A DNA stretch of 64,000 nucleotides from Patescibacteria group bacterium. GTDB lineage: Bacteria > Patescibacteriota > Minisyncoccia > Moranbacterales > GWC2-37-73. The notes beneath the pieces were generated by a model. It was given only the letters and a program-made list of their open reading frames with translations, did no database searches and was not told where the DNA came from. The DNA is taken from contig JAKLIP010000002.1 of the NCBI GenBank assembly GCA_022709545.1, positions 186,001 through 250,000 on the forward strand, in the 5' to 3' direction. This document shows, piece by piece, positions 1-7,398 of the stretch (position 1 is its first letter; every line of letters starts with the position of its first letter). Position numbers and translations under genes: made by a program.

Positions 1-58
1 ATTGTTGCCAGCATTTGCAGAGCTATAACAGGACATCACAGGACAAATCAGAGGAATG

Positions 59-982
59 CTATTTGTCTTCTTGCATTTTTTTACGTCTTGGAGTTCTTTT
101 TGCTAATTCTGGCACGCCGGGACCGGGAGTAATATAGCTAGTCGCTTTAATGTTTGGTAATTTTTGAATAAGTCGTGCCATTGGAATTCCTGTTCGTTTA
201 TGCTCCTCTACTAAATCAGCGATGACTGAACCTGATATTGTAGTTCCGGGATCAGCCTCGACAAGCGTAGAGGTATGAAATTGAGCATTTTCTTCATCGT
301 CAGCCTTTACCATTTGCTCAAGAATTTCTTCTGGAGAAAAATTATCAAGAAGTTCTTGCATTCCCGCACCGTGAATATGTTTATAGCCTAGTCTGGGAAT
401 TTTTCCTTCACTCAATGCAAATGAAAAAAAATCTTCATCGTGAAAAGGAATATGGAAGCCGGCATAGTTTATTATTACATTGCCAGCTTTCTTCATCTGA
501 AAATGATAGTGAGGCATTTTTCCTTCTCGTTTGTCTTGATGTCCTTGATAATCAGACCTAGAACAGGAAAATGACCATTCTAAATCTTTATAGACCACTG
601 TTAGCTCAATTTTTTTTGAAGATGTTTTTTCTTCAACTAAATCGTTTATATTTTTAAGGGGTATATCAGTATTTGCCACCCAGCGTAAATATGCCTCCAT
701 TCTACGAAAACTATATTTTTTATATAGCAAGGGAAAGTGTCTTTTCTTAAAGCCATTCGGTTTTAAAAGCCAATGAAAACACGGTTTCTTTTCAGAAAAA
801 TGAGAAATAGAATTTCCGCAGAAACTACATTTTCCTTCCGCAAGAGCTTCTTTTAATTCCTTAAAATCCTTTTCCGCCTTGGCATATTCTTCATCACCTT
901 TTTTTCTAAGCTCCTCATCGCTAATACCTTCTAGGTATTTATTTACAGAAGCATTTCTTTTTTCAATTTCAGATAAGTCCAT
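59..982 (-). CDS. hypothetical protein with Cys/His zinc-finger-like motif
   Basis: A 307-residue protein I do not recognise. The N-terminal 50 residues are charged and helical. A CxxC at about residues 52-55 is followed about 12 residues later by a Cys and a nearby His, consistent with a small zinc-binding site. The middle is rich in His and aromatic pairs (PHYHF, GFHIPFHDED, KHIHG). The C-terminus is basic. There is no signal peptide or membrane segment, so it is probably cytoplasmic. It diverges from the small gene at 1048. Its position beside a mobile region suggests accessory cargo, but nothing in the sequence gives its function. Confidence 0.6.
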   Translation of the reverse strand: MDLSEIEKRNASVNKYLEGISDEELRKKGDEEYAKAEKDFKELKEALAEGKCSFCGNSISHFSEKKPCFHWLLKPNGFKKRHFPLLYKKYSFRRMEAYLRWVANTDIPLKNINDLVEEKTSSKKIELTVVYKDLEWSFSCSRSDYQGHQDKREGKMPHYHFQMKKAGNVIINYAGFHIPFHDEDFFSFALSEGKIPRLGYKHIHGAGMQELLDNFSPEEILEQMVKADDEENAQFHTSTLVEADPGTTISGSVIADLVEEHKRTGIPMARLIQKLPNIKATSYITPGPGVPELAKRTPRRKKMQEDK

Positions 983-1047: not shown

Positions 1048-1263
1048 ATGAGGTTTACGAAGAAACTATTACTGCCAAGAATTCAGAGAAGAGAGAACGC
1101 CAAGCTGGAAAAATTCGTAGTTAAAAGCATCAACAAAGAGCTGAAAAGTGTAAATTTAGACTATAATTTAGTTCAAATGCAATACTTCTTTGAAAGCGTT
1201 TTTTTAAACAAAAGCGAAAGAAAAAAATTTCTAAAGAAAATTACTGAAAGTAAGAAAAAGTAA
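1048..1263 (+). CDS. small basic hypothetical protein
   Basis: A 71-residue, very basic, probably helical protein without recognisable domain. It starts 65 bases from the divergent gene ending at 982 and has no obvious Shine-Dalgarno sequence. Two hairpins follow it directly. It may be a small accessory protein of the mobile region; it could also be a chance ORF, although its length and composition resemble the neighbouring small genes. Confidence 0.4.
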   Translation: MRFTKKLLLPRIQRRENAKLEKFVVKSINKELKSVNLDYNLVQMQYFFESVFLNKSERKKFLKKITESKKK

Positions 1264-1578: not shown

Positions 1579-1770
1579 ATGTTATCTGACAAGGAATTCT
1601 ATGAGAAATTAAGCAAAAAGACGCTTTCTAACAAGGAAGTATTTGAAGCAAAGCACAATTTTGTGGGATTTTTTGACTTGCTTTTTAGAATTGACAAACG
1701 AATAAATGAACAACAAAAGGAAAATAGCTCAAATAAGACGAATAATGAAAATAACGCAAAATTATGCTAG
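1579..1770 (+). CDS. small protein coupled to the replication gene
   Basis: A 63-residue hydrophilic protein of unknown function. Its stop codon overlaps the start of the replication protein (ATGCTAG, 1764-1770), so the two are probably translationally coupled. A hairpin abuts its start codon and no Shine-Dalgarno sequence precedes it. A small regulator or helper of replication would fit this position, but that rests on context alone. Confidence 0.45.
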   Translation: MLSDKEFYEKLSKKTLSNKEVFEAKHNFVGFFDLLFRIDKRINEQQKENSSNKTNNENNAKLC

Positions 1771-2909
1771 ACACAGTAATCTTGAATTTTCCACTTGATA
1801 AGTTTGATATTTGGACGCCAGAAATGTTTTTTCCTAACGCGAAAGACTTTTTATCTGATGCCGGATATGGCAAAGCCGTTAACAATCCTTCAAAGGAAGA
1901 ATCAAAATGGGAATATTATCCAAGAATGACACTCTATAGACGACCTTCAAGAATGGGAATAAATATCGGTTTAAGAGTTGAATTTTCAGTTCCAAAGTTA
2001 CTATTTCAGAATAATCTAGACGAAATTAAAGAAAGTGATTTTGAAGAAGTTATCCTCAAATTACAGGAAAAACTAATCAAAAAAGGTGTCTATATTATGC
2101 GAGATAATTTAGCGGAAGCTACTGTGTCCGGATTTCACGCCTCAAAAAACATTGAGTTAAACGGCTACATAACAGCTACAATGGCAATCAAAGAGCTTTC
2201 CAAAATACAGCTAACAAAGAGGTTGGATCTGACAAAGACGGATTTTCGCAACGGCGGTCATTCACTTCAGTATTATTCAAAATCTCACTCCCTAGTTTTC
2301 TACGATAAAATCGCCGATATGGGAAAAGACGAAAAAAGGTCAATTGACCACGATATGAAAGGAAATCAAAAAAGTTTGTTTTGTCAGATAAACGAGTGGC
2401 GAAGAAAGACTGACATTGAAATTCTTAAAATGGAGGTTAGGCTTTCGCAAAAAAGAAAAATGGACACGGTTTTGGAAAAAATAGGATTTGGCAAAAATCC
2501 AAACTTCAGAGATATTTTTAAAAAAGATGTTTGCCAAAAAGTTTTGCTTGATTATTGGAATACGCTTGTCCAAGAAAGAAACCTGCATCTCTTTCAGCAA
2601 AACAAAAGCAAGAAAGATGAGCTTATGGAAATTTCTGATTATATCGCAAATCAAAATGGAAGACCTACAAAAGCAGTAGCTCTGTATGCTATCAAAGATT
2701 TTTGCAAGAGCGAGGGTGCAGAATTGTTTCGTCAGATTATAGAGGACAAATTCGGAAAAGGCTCTTGGAATAATGTAAACAAGCACTTGAAAGAATTAAA
2801 TGCAATAGCATTAAATACAAACGCATTGTCGCCAGAGCTTTATTTGAAGGATATTGAAGAAGGATTAAAAAAATTTGATGTCTTTAAGAAAGAGCAAATT
2901 ACGAGTTAA
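1764..2909 (+). CDS. G2P/CRI-like replication initiation protein
   Basis: This 381-residue protein resembles the phage/plasmid replication proteins of the gene II/X (CRI) group, which nick one strand to start rolling-circle replication. The visible hallmarks are the LVFYDKIADM segment near residue 175 and the EVRLS segment near residue 223, placed as in that family. The C-terminal third (after about 280) is a helical region of unknown role. It overlaps the preceding 63-aa ORF by 7 bases. It suggests the element can replicate as a circle when excised. The family call is by motif only, and the catalytic Tyr was not pinned down. Confidence 0.6.
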   Translation: MLDTVILNFPLDKFDIWTPEMFFPNAKDFLSDAGYGKAVNNPSKEESKWEYYPRMTLYRRPSRMGINIGLRVEFSVPKLLFQNNLDEIKESDFEEVILKLQEKLIKKGVYIMRDNLAEATVSGFHASKNIELNGYITATMAIKELSKIQLTKRLDLTKTDFRNGGHSLQYYSKSHSLVFYDKIADMGKDEKRSIDHDMKGNQKSLFCQINEWRRKTDIEILKMEVRLSQKRKMDTVLEKIGFGKNPNFRDIFKKDVCQKVLLDYWNTLVQERNLHLFQQNKSKKDELMEISDYIANQNGRPTKAVALYAIKDFCKSEGAELFRQIIEDKFGKGSWNNVNKHLKELNAIALNTNALSPELYLKDIEEGLKKFDVFKKEQITS

Positions 2910-2927: not shown

Positions 2928-3128
2928 ATGAGTAAAAAAAATTTAAAAAAGAAAAAAGTTGAACTCACTGATGAGTTGCTTGATGAAATTTTTCAAGGAC
3001 GAACTGCTGAAGAAATAAGAAAGGAGCTAAAGAAAAGAGGCTTGGAGGACGAGATTACTGTAATAGGAAAGTATGATTATTGCGATGCGTGTGGTGGTTG
3101 CAATGATCGTAAGGACTGTTTCTTGTAA
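2928..3128 (+). CDS. small Cys-cluster protein
   Basis: A 66-residue protein. The first half is lysine-rich and helical (ELTDELLDEIFQGRTAEEI). The C-terminus carries four cysteines (CDACGGCNDRKDC, about residues 52-64), suggesting a bound metal ion. It follows the replication gene by 18 bases and belongs to the same transcription unit. The promoter of the next operon overlaps its last codons. Confidence 0.5.
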   Translation: MSKKNLKKKKVELTDELLDEIFQGRTAEEIRKELKKRGLEDEITVIGKYDYCDACGGCNDRKDCFL

Positions 3129-3165: not shown

Positions 3166-3342
3166 ATGCAAGAAAAAGAATTTTACACAGCTCAAGAATT
3201 AGCTGATATTTTAAGGGTAAATATAATGACTATTTATCGCTACATTAAAGCTGGAAAAATTAAAGCTTATAAATTCGGTAAAGAGTTTCGTATTAAAAAG
3301 AACGAGTTTCAAAGTTTTGTAGAAAATGCATCAACAAAATAA
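3166..3342 (+). CDS. excisionase-family helix-turn-helix protein
   Basis: A 58-residue single-domain protein of the MerR-like HTH_17/excisionase family. It has the usual layout: YTAQELADILRVN, then TIYRYIKAGKIKAYKFG, then FRIKKNEFQSFV. Such proteins act as recombination directionality factors or as repressors of small operons. It is first in an operon that ends with the serine recombinase, so control of excision or of the R-M genes are both plausible. Its end overlaps the methyltransferase start by 17 bases. Confidence 0.75.
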   Translation: MQEKEFYTAQELADILRVNIMTIYRYIKAGKIKAYKFGKEFRIKKNEFQSFVENASTK

Positions 3343-4138
3343 ATCTATGAGAAAATTATCTTTTGAGGTCAAATATAATAAAGGAAAAAATACAATAAAA
3401 ATCGTTCACGATGATGTATTAAAATTTCTTGAAAGTCAGCCAGAAAAAAGTATAGACATTATTGTAACAGATCCAGCTTATTCAGGAATGAATAATCATT
3501 TAAGCTTGGGGAACGGAAGAATTGTTGGAAAATATGCCGAAAAAGGAACAGTAAATGGAAAATGGTTTGAGGAATTCAAAGATACAGAAGAAAATTATAG
3601 AAATTTTTTGCTATTGTGCAAAAAAGCACTGAAAAGTTCAGGTCATTTATATATAATGTTTGATTCCTACTCCCTTCTTTCGCTTGGTCCAATAGTAAGA
3701 GAACTATTTGATGTGAAAAATATTATTTCCTGGGATAAGGTCAATTTAGGAATGGGACATTATTTCAGAAGGCGACACGAATTTATTATTTTTGCAACAA
3801 ATAAAAACAACCGTAAGATAAAGAGCCGCTCATTTCCAGATGTTTGGAGAATTAAGAGGGTTCATCAAGCAAAGTATCCTACGCAGAAACCGGTTGAATT
3901 ATTTGACATAATGTTAAGTGCCAGCACTTCACCAAACTTTGTTGTCTGTGACCCATTTTTAGGCAGTGGCTCTGCAGCAATTTCTTCAATCAAACATAAT
4001 TGTAATTTTATAGGCTGTGATATCTCAAACAAGTCTATTGAAATATCGGAAAAGAGAATTAAAGAATATATTAAATTTAAAAAAGATATTCTTCAAAAAA
4101 ATTCCTCTATTCCAGATAACGAGAAAATATTTTGGTAA
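3326..4138 (+). CDS. beta-class DNA methyltransferase (N6-adenine/N4-cytosine)
   Basis: A 270-residue S-adenosylmethionine-dependent DNA methyltransferase. The catalytic motif IV, TDPAYSG, is near residue 50 and the AdoMet motif, FLGSGS, near residue 211, which is the beta-class order. A TQKP motif lies at about 187. The first ATG overlaps the HTH gene; a second in-frame ATG at 3347 just after that gene's stop is an equally possible start. It is followed 27 bases later by an AlwI-family endonuclease and should protect the host at that enzyme's site. Only one methyltransferase is present, whereas asymmetric type IIS sites usually need both strands modified. Confidence 0.85.
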   Translation: MHQQNKSMRKLSFEVKYNKGKNTIKIVHDDVLKFLESQPEKSIDIIVTDPAYSGMNNHLSLGNGRIVGKYAEKGTVNGKWFEEFKDTEENYRNFLLLCKKALKSSGHLYIMFDSYSLLSLGPIVRELFDVKNIISWDKVNLGMGHYFRRRHEFIIFATNKNNRKIKSRSFPDVWRIKRVHQAKYPTQKPVELFDIMLSASTSPNFVVCDPFLGSGSAAISSIKHNCNFIGCDISNKSIEISEKRIKEYIKFKKDILQKNSSIPDNEKIFW

Positions 4139-4165
4139 ATAATAAACGATAAGAAAAAAATAATT

Positions 4166-5857
4166 ATGGCTCACATAACAGATAAAAAAACAATATTTTT
4201 CGTTACCTCGCCTAGGTCACCACACAAACTGGTTGATGAGATAAAATTTTTATCAGAAAATTTTGAAGGTCAGAAATGGAATTCAGAGACTCAAAAAAAG
4301 TTTTATTTACAACTAGCTAAACAAGATTTTTTTGAGGGTTCAGCAACTGGAGATGTCGCTTTTAAGGCTAGAGATAGAGTAAACAGAGCTCCTAAATCTC
4401 TTGGATTGATTGACTTAAAGCCAGTTATCAAGCTTACTGAAGCTGGAAAAAAATATGTTTATGGAAACAGACCGGAAGAGATATTTTTAAGACAGCTATT
4501 GAAGTTCCAGCTTCATTCGCCTTATCATAAAGATAAAAATAACACATTTAGAATAAAGCCCTACCTTGAGTTAATGAGACTTATTTATGAATTAGACGGT
4601 TTAAGCAAGCATGAGATAGGGCTATTTGTTATTCAACTTACAGATTTTGCTAAATACAATAATGTAAAAAATAAAATTATCAATTTCAGAGAAGAAAAAA
4701 AGTTATTGCGAACAAAAAAGATAAATTATAAAAAATTTATCGCCTTGCAATTTGAGAAAGAGCTGACTGAATTATTCAAGGAAGACATTGAGCAAGGAAA
4801 GTTATCAATAAGGGAAAGTAAGGAACAAACTTTAGATAATTTTGTTAAAACTAAACGAAGTAATCATCTTGATTATGCCGATGCCTCTATTAGGTATCTT
4901 CGTGCTACCGGACTGTTTTCGTTAAATCCAAAAACATCAAAAGTATACATTCTCAAAGAAAGAAAAAATGATATTGAATTTATTCTAAAGAATATTGATA
5001 GGGATATATTTGCATATAAAGATGAAGAAGATTATGAAGCGAATTTGTTTGATGCGAGCAAGCCATTGCTTCTTGTAGATAATAAAGACTTGATAATTTC
5101 TAAAATTACACAGAAAGATACAAGAGTTAGTGTTTCGGCACTCAAAGAGAAGGACACGGAAGACTTGAAAAATATCTATGAAAGCCTAATCAAAGAGAGT
5201 CTTGAAAAATATATTGAAAATGAAAAAAGTAAATTACGAAATTATGAAGAATATAATGATATACTTGAAGTTTTTTCAGGTATTGTAAATAGAGAAAATA
5301 TAGATCCATCTCTTTTCTTTGAATGGAATATTTGGAGAGCTTTTACAATGTTGAACGACGGAGATATTCAAGGAAACTTTAAAATTGATGACGATGGTAT
5401 GCCATTATATACAGCTCCAGGCAACACACCCGATATAGTTTGTAAATATAAAGATTTTGATGCAATTGTTGAAGTCACTCTATCATCAGGACAAAAACAA
5501 TATGAAATGGAAGGAGAGCCTGTAGCAAGACACTATGGTCAATATAAAAAAAGCAATTCAAAACCTGTATTTGGAATATTTGTAGCTCCTAATTTGAATA
5601 ATGCTACCATTGCTCACTACTACGGTTTGTATCGCATCAACATAGAATATTATGGCGGAAAATCACAAATAATACCTTTAAGTTTAGAGGACTTCAAATG
5701 TTTATTAAAAAACGCCCATAGCTCCGCAATTAAACCGAAAGCAGATGATTTAAAAAATTTGTTTAATTCACTATCTAATCTTGCGTTGAAAACTGAAAAT
5801 GAAAAAGATTGGTATCAGCAAATTTCGCAAACAGTCCAAAACGCATTCGTAAAATGA
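4166..5857 (+). CDS. AlwI-family type II restriction endonuclease
   Basis: A 563-residue protein matching the AlwI/MlyI/PleI group of type IIS endonucleases. The N-terminus contains the family-like FVTSPRSPHKLVDEI segment. The PD-(D/E)xK-like nuclease core is near residues 420-455 (PDIV, then IVEVTLSSG, then QYEMEGEPVARH). Known members recognise GGATC or GASTC; the site here cannot be read from the sequence. It partners the upstream methyltransferase and its stop overlaps the recombinase start (ATGA). Members of this family include natural nicking enzymes, so a nicking role is possible. Confidence 0.75.
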   Translation: MAHITDKKTIFFVTSPRSPHKLVDEIKFLSENFEGQKWNSETQKKFYLQLAKQDFFEGSATGDVAFKARDRVNRAPKSLGLIDLKPVIKLTEAGKKYVYGNRPEEIFLRQLLKFQLHSPYHKDKNNTFRIKPYLELMRLIYELDGLSKHEIGLFVIQLTDFAKYNNVKNKIINFREEKKLLRTKKINYKKFIALQFEKELTELFKEDIEQGKLSIRESKEQTLDNFVKTKRSNHLDYADASIRYLRATGLFSLNPKTSKVYILKERKNDIEFILKNIDRDIFAYKDEEDYEANLFDASKPLLLVDNKDLIISKITQKDTRVSVSALKEKDTEDLKNIYESLIKESLEKYIENEKSKLRNYEEYNDILEVFSGIVNRENIDPSLFFEWNIWRAFTMLNDGDIQGNFKIDDDGMPLYTAPGNTPDIVCKYKDFDAIVEVTLSSGQKQYEMEGEPVARHYGQYKKSNSKPVFGIFVAPNLNNATIAHYYGLYRINIEYYGGKSQIIPLSLEDFKCLLKNAHSSAIKPKADDLKNLFNSLSNLALKTENEKDWYQQISQTVQNAFVK

Positions 5858-7338
5858 AAGCGATAATATTAGCTAGAGTTTCAACAGAAGAACAAAAAGA
5901 CGCCGGAAACTCTCTACCAGCTCAAATTCATAGGCTTAAAGAATACTGCAAAACAAAAGGTTTTGCAGTTTTAGAAATCTTTAGCTTTGATGAAAGTGCC
6001 TATAAACAAAAAAGAGACGAATTTGATAAGGCAATTGATTTAGTAAAGAAAAGCAAAGATAAAATTGTAGTCTGTTTTGACAAAGTAGATAGATTTACGC
6101 GAAATGTTTTTGATAAACGCGTTCCACTTTTATATGATTTAGCAATGCAAGATAAAATAGAATTACATTTTGTTTCAGACAACCTTGTTATCTCTTCAAA
6201 TATATCGGCAGCAGAAAAATTTCATTTTGGAATAAATTTAGGTCTGGCGAAATATTATTCTGATGCAATTAGCGACAATGTAAAAAGAGCTTACGAGCAG
6301 AAATTAAGGAATGGCGAATGGATTGGACAAGCCTATCTGGGATATAAAAATATAACACTGGAAAATGAAAAAAAGCATATTATCATAGACAAGGACAAAG
6401 AATTTCTAGTCCTAAAAATGTTTCAGTTGTATGCCACGGGTAAATTTTCAATGAAAAAGCTTGCACAGGAAATGAACGACAGAGGCTTGAGAAGTAGGAG
6501 CGGAATGAAGATGACAACAAGCCAAGTTCATGCAATTTTAAGAAACCCGTTCTATTACGGCGTAATGAGAGTTAAGGGTAAGCTATATCCGCATAAATAT
6601 CAACCTATCGTTTCAAGATATTTATTTGAAAAAGTCCAAGAAGTTATAAACGGCTATAATAGGCAAAATTTCAAACGAACAAACAATCCATATATTTTCA
6701 GAGGATTGATAAAATGTTCACATTGCGGATTAGCAATTACGCCAGAACTTCAGAAAGGGCATGTTTACTATCATTGCACTAATTATTACGGGACTTGTCC
6801 TGATAAAGGAATAAAGTGGTTGAGAGAAGATGAATTAGTGGATCAAACTAAAGACCTATTTCAGAGTTTAAAATTGGAGCCAGAAGCCCTTGATAGGCTC
6901 AAAGATGAGCTAAGAACTATTCATGATGCTGAAAAAGTGTATTATGAGAAAAATAAAGCAACTATTCAAAGAAAAATAGGCAATATAGATGCAAGGTTAA
7001 AGGTTATGTATAGAGACAGACTTGATGGACGTATTACTGCGGACGAATATGACAAAATGGCTATTGAATACACACAAGAAAGAGAAAACTTAAATACACA
7101 ACTTCAGGAACATTCGTCCGCTGATAGAGACTTCAGTCTTACAGCAAATAAAGTATTAGACTTGTCGCAAAGGGCATTAGAATTGTTCCAAAATTCTGAA
7201 CCACAAGAAAAAACCCAACTATTGGGTTTCTTACTTCAGAACCTTACTTTAAATGCAGGAAAGCTTTCATTTGAGGTAAAAGCTCCCTTTAATGGCATAA
7301 TGGAATATGCCAAAACTAAAGAATGGCTCCGGCGGTAG
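5854..7338 (+). CDS. large serine recombinase (site-specific integrase)
   Basis: A 494-residue recombinase that cuts and rejoins DNA through a serine-phosphate link. The catalytic Ser is residue 10 (LARVSTEEQ). The resolvase domain spans about 1-140 and the recombinase domain about 160-265. A zinc ribbon starts at about 285 (CSHCG ... YYHC) and a coiled coil lies at about 350-430. I chose the ATG at 5854, which overlaps the preceding stop as ATGA, because an upstream in-frame extension would run into the endonuclease gene. The last four codons and the stop are read from the complement of the tRNA-Asn 3' end, marking the element's right junction. Confidence 0.9.
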   Translation: MKAIILARVSTEEQKDAGNSLPAQIHRLKEYCKTKGFAVLEIFSFDESAYKQKRDEFDKAIDLVKKSKDKIVVCFDKVDRFTRNVFDKRVPLLYDLAMQDKIELHFVSDNLVISSNISAAEKFHFGINLGLAKYYSDAISDNVKRAYEQKLRNGEWIGQAYLGYKNITLENEKKHIIIDKDKEFLVLKMFQLYATGKFSMKKLAQEMNDRGLRSRSGMKMTTSQVHAILRNPFYYGVMRVKGKLYPHKYQPIVSRYLFEKVQEVINGYNRQNFKRTNNPYIFRGLIKCSHCGLAITPELQKGHVYYHCTNYYGTCPDKGIKWLREDELVDQTKDLFQSLKLEPEALDRLKDELRTIHDAEKVYYEKNKATIQRKIGNIDARLKVMYRDRLDGRITADEYDKMAIEYTQERENLNTQLQEHSSADRDFSLTANKVLDLSQRALELFQNSEPQEKTQLLGFLLQNLTLNAGKLSFEVKAPFNGIMEYAKTKEWLRR

Positions 7339-7345
7339 GATTCGA
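7324..7345. other. probable attachment-site junction (recombinase/tRNA-Asn)
   Basis: The recombinase reading frame enters the tRNA-Asn gene and stops at 7336-7338, so the recombination core must lie in or just left of this segment. A matching second copy of the tRNA 3' end was not seen between 1 and 7300, so the other junction is probably outside the window or too short to notice by eye. Confidence 0.45.
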
Positions 7346-7398
7346 ACCTACAACCAAGGGATTAACAGTCCCCTGCGCTACCGTTGCGCTACGCCGGA
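7324..7398 (-). tRNA. tRNA-Asn (GTT)
   Basis: A complete cloverleaf on the minus strand: acceptor stem TCCGGCG/CGCCGGA, anticodon loop CTGTTAA (anticodon GTT), T-loop TTCGAAT, discriminator G. The mature body is 7327-7398 and CCA is encoded at 7324-7326. It is the apparent integration target of the serine recombinase gene, which overlaps its 3' end. The tRNA-Ser in this window does not encode CCA, so the CCA here may have been supplied by the inserted element. Confidence 0.95.

Follow-up and report, generated by a model that had tools for sequence, protein, structure and literature searches.

A 7385-bp element in a Patescibacteria tRNA-Asn gene with a predicted attachment site inside its own serine integrase gene

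We analysed a window of 64,000 nucleotides from a Patescibacteria group bacterium (GenBank assembly GCA_022709545.1, 1.02 Mb; contig JAKLIP010000002.1, here C10:186001-250000), whose left part carries a 7385-bp element in the 3' end of a tRNA-Asn gene. In our reading, to which we assign a probability of about 0.9, the attachment site used by the circular element (attP) lies inside the element's own integrase gene, and integration splits that gene. The reading rests, at the level of sequence, on putative left and right attachment sites (attL and attR), a C-terminal tail in frame with the gene, a tRNA restored on joining, a layout shared by a family of relatives, cores that match their targets, an apparent circle (L153) and a tandem array. 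The features concerned are listed in window coordinates, and negative positions lie to the left of the window.

5854..7338, + strand: large serine integrase gene; 494 amino acids (aa) in the integrated form, with the last codons and the stop inside the tRNA.
7324..7398, - strand: tRNA-Asn(GUU), called by ARAGORN as tRNA-Asn(gtt), the probable integration target; 3' end and CCA apparently supplied by the element.
7282..7325, + strand: predicted P half of attP, the last element-encoded recombinase codons up to the core.
7326..7330, + strand: core GCTCC, common to attR and attL; the crossover would lie inside or beside this core, which tracks the target tRNA across the family.
1..28, + strand (TAA at 26-28): end of the severed recombinase C-terminal tail (..ELLPAFAEL-stop), which begins at the attL core at window -59.

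The recombinase was assigned to the large serine integrases by its N-terminal resolvase domain with the catalytic Ser in an R-V-S motif (R8 V9 S10, invariant across 8 homologues), its recombinase domain, zinc ribbon and coiled coil (long helices at 338-417 in the model of relative L166) and the short core common to the predicted attL and attR. Pfam matches are PF00239 (E=9e-21), PF07508 and PF13408, finishing at residue 320 of 494; the match to phage integrase family phrog_95 has E=4.6e-78, the closest solved structures (A118/TP901-1-type large serine integrases) align to residues 2-115 and 216-420, and the nearest named relatives by recombinase are Moranbacteria. The frame that opens at ATG 5854 ends K-E-W-L-R-R-stop, with 7324-7338 reading TGG CTC CGG CGG TAG: TGG at 7324-7326 is the encoded CCA read antisense, 7327 is the discriminator, the 3' side of the acceptor stem occupies 7328-7334, and the stop TAG falls inside the T stem. 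The last codons are therefore the antisense of the tRNA-Asn 3' end, as an initial annotation made from the letters of this stretch had stated.

That annotation also placed the recombination site within or next to these codons, which agrees with the core at 7326-7330 and its partner at window -59 (C10:185941), 59 bases left of the window, where attL carries the same GCTCC. Before the attL core stands AAAAAACAGGGCTTTAAATAAGTCCTGAAAATCGTT, which forms a terminator hairpin on the strand of the tRNA; after the core comes a frame of 27 codons that has no start of its own and falls in frame with the recombinase once joined. A profile of recombinase tails, which makes no use of the tRNA, placed the match at window -67 to 25 (own_39933_40025) with E=2.8e-3, and a second profile, from whose training this genome was excluded, gave 1.9e-5, the next match in 46 kb and six frames being 0.12. 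Joining the element core to core in silico produced a recombinase of 519 aa ending ..KEWLPLANMFRNLNLGRLMQEMELLPAFAEL, against 494 aa (..KEWLRR) when integrated, and joining the flanks produced an intact tRNA-Asn without CCA. The predicted attP is AAAGAATGGCTCCCGCTAGCTAATATG and the predicted empty-site junction (attB) is ..AAAATCGTTGCTCCGGCGGTAGG.. The altered C-terminus that the initial annotation expected on excision would thus be a larger change than it had guessed, with a conserved 27-codon tail restored. Of the second copy of the tRNA 3' end for which it proposed a search left of the window, the 5-bp core at -59 was found; there is no long copy in the 40 kb to the left.

Several other placements of the left end were tried. 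A candidate attL at 1409-1430 (AGCTC..ACTTGGAAC) was set aside, since genes of the element that are conserved in G017 extend to its left and the site at -59 is better; a G053 left-end candidate (ATAGGCTCCG) was discarded as part of a terminator hairpin; and placement through G003-G017 synteny failed because the intergenic DNA is too divergent. A search for an inverted copy of the P half, made to place attL, returned chance-level matches only.

The predicted sites suggest the following course. attP would lie inside the integrase gene, 27 codons before its true stop, and on the circle the gene would read through GCTCC into the tail to give the 519-aa protein. At the core, recombination between attP and the tRNA 3' end (attB) would break the gene in two: its first 492 codons would remain beside the tRNA, whose antisense strand would provide two further codons and a stop, and the severed tail (27 aa) would be left without a start codon at the other end, 7.4 kb away. 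The tRNA would stay whole because the element supplies its last bases. The recombinase itself presumably performs the reaction, with the 519-aa form integrating, and we infer that loss of the tail would change its activity, marking or stabilising the integrated state. Excision, or a tandem neighbour, would give the tail back to the truncated integrase.

To place the gene in its family, a collection of 84,980 species was scanned, which yielded 80 relatives, mostly in candidate-phyla bacteria and also in Dependentiae, Bacteroidota, Pseudomonadota and others; in viral contigs, only distant recombinases were found. The recombinase runs antisense into a tRNA 3' end in 66 of the 80 (61 plain, 5 with introns). 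In the 61, the tRNA gene begins at the recombinase end and is antisense in every case, with the stop codon within the tRNA in most, which argues that the overlap is not due to chance. Their targets are mainly tRNA-Asn, with Gln, His, Glu, Asp, Leu, Pro, Ser and Gly also represented, and Thr joins these when all 66 are counted. The five with introns (L106, L138, L140, L149 and L157; introns of about 240-610 nt by ARAGORN) abut tRNA genes that the default tRNA search had missed, and there too the tRNA 3' end is rebuilt. The other 14 comprise 4 at contig ends, 2 that are degenerate, 6 with an unsplit tail and 2 that are unexplained (L159 and L167). In a maximum-likelihood tree the tRNA-abutting members are spread over the whole family, and the target has changed repeatedly. 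Close homologues in the same order (67-43% identity) are in every case oriented convergently to the tRNA, into which the frame extends, at tRNA-Asn (G053, G017, G072, G068, G045), tRNA-Leu (G006) or tRNA-Gln (G101); in G004, G060 and G054 a C-terminal recombinase remnant is all that lies beside tRNA-Asn.

The severed tail recurs in the family. At the left ends of G045 and G068, a tRNA-type terminator is followed by the core GCTCC and then by conserved sequence that, in the recombinase frame, is the C-terminal tail; the same sequence (consensus WLPLLDAFRTLNWxxIExEL) lies upstream of many relatives and starts exactly at the core, and severed tails were located in 28 of the 61 tRNA loci. With a profile trained on the C-termini of just the five unsplit recombinases without a tRNA (L113, L150, L152, L165 and L166), the upstream coding strand of the 61 loci gave 21 matches at E<=0.01 and 24 at E<=0.1, against 0 at E<=0.1 on the other strand and 0 in the downstream flanks (534 kb). 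The attL core tracks the target: GCTCC for Asn, GCTGC or TGGCTGG for Gln, and GGGT for His. The attL-attR core match was 188 against 160.9 when shuffled, and for the six non-Asn pairs alone 32 against 19.3, with 0 of 5000 shuffles reaching the observed value in either case; the shuffle ignores tree relatedness. Some loci hold two or three severed tails: L124 (1334, 2404, 4051), L107 (465, 1261, 2475), L133 and L165. By their sequence, these appear to be the signature of repeated insertion and decay at the same tRNA.

Unsplit forms were also recovered. L153 is a contig of 7716 bp with a 141-bp terminal repeat, and therefore an apparent circle of 7575 bp; its recombinase continues unsplit through the core to 540 aa. 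A Dependentiae contig carries three recombinases in the same direction, the first and second unsplit with tails and the third ending in tRNA-Asn, as would be expected if each new insertion at the tRNA passes its tail to the previous recombinase. In Legionella adelaidensis (cultured, complete record), a member sits at tRNA-Asn and an older recombinase remnant is joined to a tail at the far end, 12.4 kb away.

Several points weigh against a gene split at its own attP. The tail was found in just 28 of 61 tRNA loci, although many flanks stop at 10 kb and some elements may have lost attL; the core has just 5 bp, and the crossover is not placed to the exact base; the window tail is a divergent member, with FRNLNL instead of FRTLNW; and L159 and L167 have neither a tRNA nor a clear tail. 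The tail of unsplit relative L166 was modelled by AlphaFold with a predicted local distance difference test score of about 53-75, and for TTCAGAAC, a part of the tail, conservation may reflect a DNA site. Excision of the window copy is a prediction from in-silico joining of its ends.

The tail carries conservation signals both of a protein and of a DNA site. At the conserved tail columns L12, D/N13, I17, E20 and L21, third codon positions are more variable than second positions; over tail codons 13-24, which are outside the usual att arm, the ratio of nonsynonymous to synonymous differences (pN/pS) is 0.50 in 259 pairs, the pairs being non-independent and pS near saturation. In the L166 model the tail forms two short helices, predicted with moderate confidence. 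On the DNA side, TTCAGAAC looks conserved as well, and in some members GTTCT in the opposite arm may be its mirror.

One possibility, which we put just short of even odds, is a switch: the circle would make the full-length enzyme, which integrates, and the truncated form made after integration would recombine differently or not at all, locking the element in place until a recombination directionality factor (RDF) or a neighbouring tail is supplied. Conservation of the severed tail favours it, as do two precedents: the tyrosine integrase of Mx8 is altered in the same way and its specificity changes (PMC6070905), and the serine recombinase DsiB is proposed by its authors to be fully functional perhaps only on the circle (PMC3146451). 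Against it, serine integrases act in one direction even where no such switch exists. A second possibility, to which we give slightly less weight, is that the split does not regulate the enzyme: attP would overlap the 3' end of the gene simply to save space, with both enzyme forms behaving alike. The split does fall after all recognised catalytic and DNA-binding domains, the model is less confident in the tail and TTCAGAAC looks conserved as DNA, yet conservation of amino-acid type continues past the likely att arm (pN/pS about 0.5) across many host phyla, and unsplit copies keep the tail. We tentatively extend the switch to a wider proposal, less probable than its opposite, in which large serine integrases of candidate phyla record their state in their own frame and the tail is a built-in directionality control, the serine counterpart of Mx8.

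It is very improbable that another, more distant att site is used and that the tail-like frame at -59 is unrelated. The lack of a long tRNA copy in the 40 kb to the left and the short cores used by large serine integrases would agree with such a site; against it, the frame at -59 has the core in the right codon, a host-side terminator hairpin and similarity to the G017 and G045 left ends. That the overlap arose by accident, through a single insertion or through gene calling, and has no att function is contradicted by the present data, in that 66 of 80 relatives share the layout across ten tRNA types and the attL core changes with the target, even though short open frames are common on antisense tRNA strands.

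Integrases split by integration are known from Mx8, a Myxococcus phage whose integrase is a tyrosine recombinase and targets a tRNA gene, and from the SSV-type archaeal integrases, also tyrosine recombinases, which extend across attP and are partitioned on integration into a tRNA gene, with a split position and a consequence that differ from those of the window element. The window integrase would work like them, with attP in the integrase frame and a changed C-terminus (519 against 494 aa; unsplit in L153), but it has serine recombinase domains and so belongs to another protein family, carried by a small non-phage element. The A118/TP901-1-type large serine integrases are of the same enzyme class, and their phages use other targets; we know of none in which attP cuts the integrase frame. 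In the Islander paper, Mx8 and SSV are named as integrases extending across attP, Mx8 is listed with integrases of tRNA genes, and tyrosine integrases are described as the only ones known to target such genes (PMC4383910); the remark of the initial annotation that serine recombinases target tRNAs less often accords with this literature, in which they are not thought to use tRNA genes. An Islander-type element has a BLAST-findable tRNA fragment and a tyrosine integrase, whereas here we find a 5-bp shared core and a serine integrase. Mx8 likewise has attP inside its integrase gene, which gains a new 3' end on integration, and the altered integrase is not inactive but changed in specificity (PMC6070905, citing Tojo 1996 and Magrini 1999).

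The closest serine system is DsiB of Dehalococcoides (2011; PMC3146451). The DsiB/ssrA islands likewise encode a CcrB-like large serine recombinase, and the att site that its 3' end overlaps belongs to a structural RNA gene, there the transfer-messenger RNA (tmRNA) gene; the stop codon lies in host DNA, the true stop was left open, and tandem islands occur. They differ in having the T loop of tmRNA as target, a 20-bp repeat and a second, small serine recombinase, DsiA, where the present family uses tRNAs and a core of about 5 bp and the window element has tRNA-Asn as target and no second recombinase among its open reading frames (ORFs). A conserved severed tail, identified here, is not described in the excerpted text of that paper. 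In a search limited to open-access papers, neither this family nor a serine integrase with a conserved severed tail turned up; split integrases themselves are known, and a serine integrase family with a split frame and a conserved severed tail appears to be new.

A whole family of serine integrases that targets several different tRNAs, with cores short enough to escape tRNA-fragment methods, has practical consequences. Deposited genes of the family end in host-encoded antisense tRNA residues, and the natural full-length enzymes are therefore absent from those entries; tests of integrase tools built from annotated sequence would be run on the shortened enzyme. Because the severed tails mark left ends exactly, they yield attP and attB of many elements together. 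Control of the direction of serine integrases, a long-standing question, becomes directly testable with two forms of one enzyme.

The locus also bears on the origin of the CCA. Because the attL flank reads ..CGTT/GCTCC, the original tRNA-Asn here was without an encoded CCA and the element brought the TGG. The suggestion in the initial annotation that the tRNA 3' end had been rebuilt by the insertion holds at this locus and fails as a general rule: an encoded CCA occurs in unoccupied tRNA-Asn genes of relatives, and at L142 and L154 the TGG is on the attL side and absent from attR, meaning that the element removes the CCA. CCA as a mark of insertion in general was rejected for these reasons. 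Empty tRNA-Asn sites, with nothing inserted, were found beside rpoD in G003, G007, G011 and other relatives, which supplies the empty locus that the initial annotation had called for and means that the arrangement is not shared by all relatives. A related element in G006 (L077) occupies tRNA-Leu(CAA); in the present genome (L005 11022-11104), the same tRNA-Leu has the same neighbour genes on one side and no related recombinase was found there, and this locus is likely an empty site for the G006-type variant.

The other features of the element are as follows.

59..982, - strand: 307-aa ORF; no significant family match.
1048..1263, + strand: 71-aa ORF near the left end, conserved in the G017 element (54-55% identity).
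1579..1770, + strand: 63-aa ORF, conserved in the G017 and G053 elements (73-76% identity).
1764..2909, + strand: 381-aa ORF, conserved in the G068 and G045 elements (38% identity); no family match.
2928..3128, + strand: 66-aa ORF; no significant family match.
3166..3342, + strand: 58-aa HTH_17 protein (PF12728, E=4.8e-14; phrog_66, excisionase and transcriptional regulator, E=9e-10).
3326..4138, + strand: DNA methyltransferase (N6/N4; PF01555, E=3e-26; PADLOC type II methyltransferase, E=2e-112).
4166..5857, + strand: AlwI-type restriction endonuclease (PF09491, E=2e-61); stop overlaps the recombinase start (ATGA).
7208..7232, - strand (the tRNA strand): terminator-like hairpin and T run inside the recombinase gene; weak, with 6 such sites against 3.7 expected.

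The 381-aa ORF was suspected to encode a replication protein, an assignment dropped on the lack of a family match. No structural or packaging match that would class the element as a prophage was found among its ORFs. The HTH_17 protein is a candidate for the excisionase (RDF) that large serine integrases need for excision, or for a controller of the restriction-modification genes. The recombinase is the final gene after those for the HTH_17 protein, the methyltransferase and the endonuclease, and its overlap with the endonuclease gene means that integrase expression may be tied to the restriction-modification operon. A restriction-modification pair lies directly before the recombinase both in the window (AlwI type, 3326-5857) and in circle L153 (MvaI/BcnI type). 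The hairpin at 7208-7232 may stand in for the terminator of the tRNA, displaced to attL; a similar one occurs at the matching place in G017, with paired base changes. In the same genome, a distant serine recombinase (27% identity; L002, G000:C10:290782-293837) has an ORF ending at 1413, antisense in a tRNA-Gly at 1404-1476, so that the layout may reach well beyond the family.

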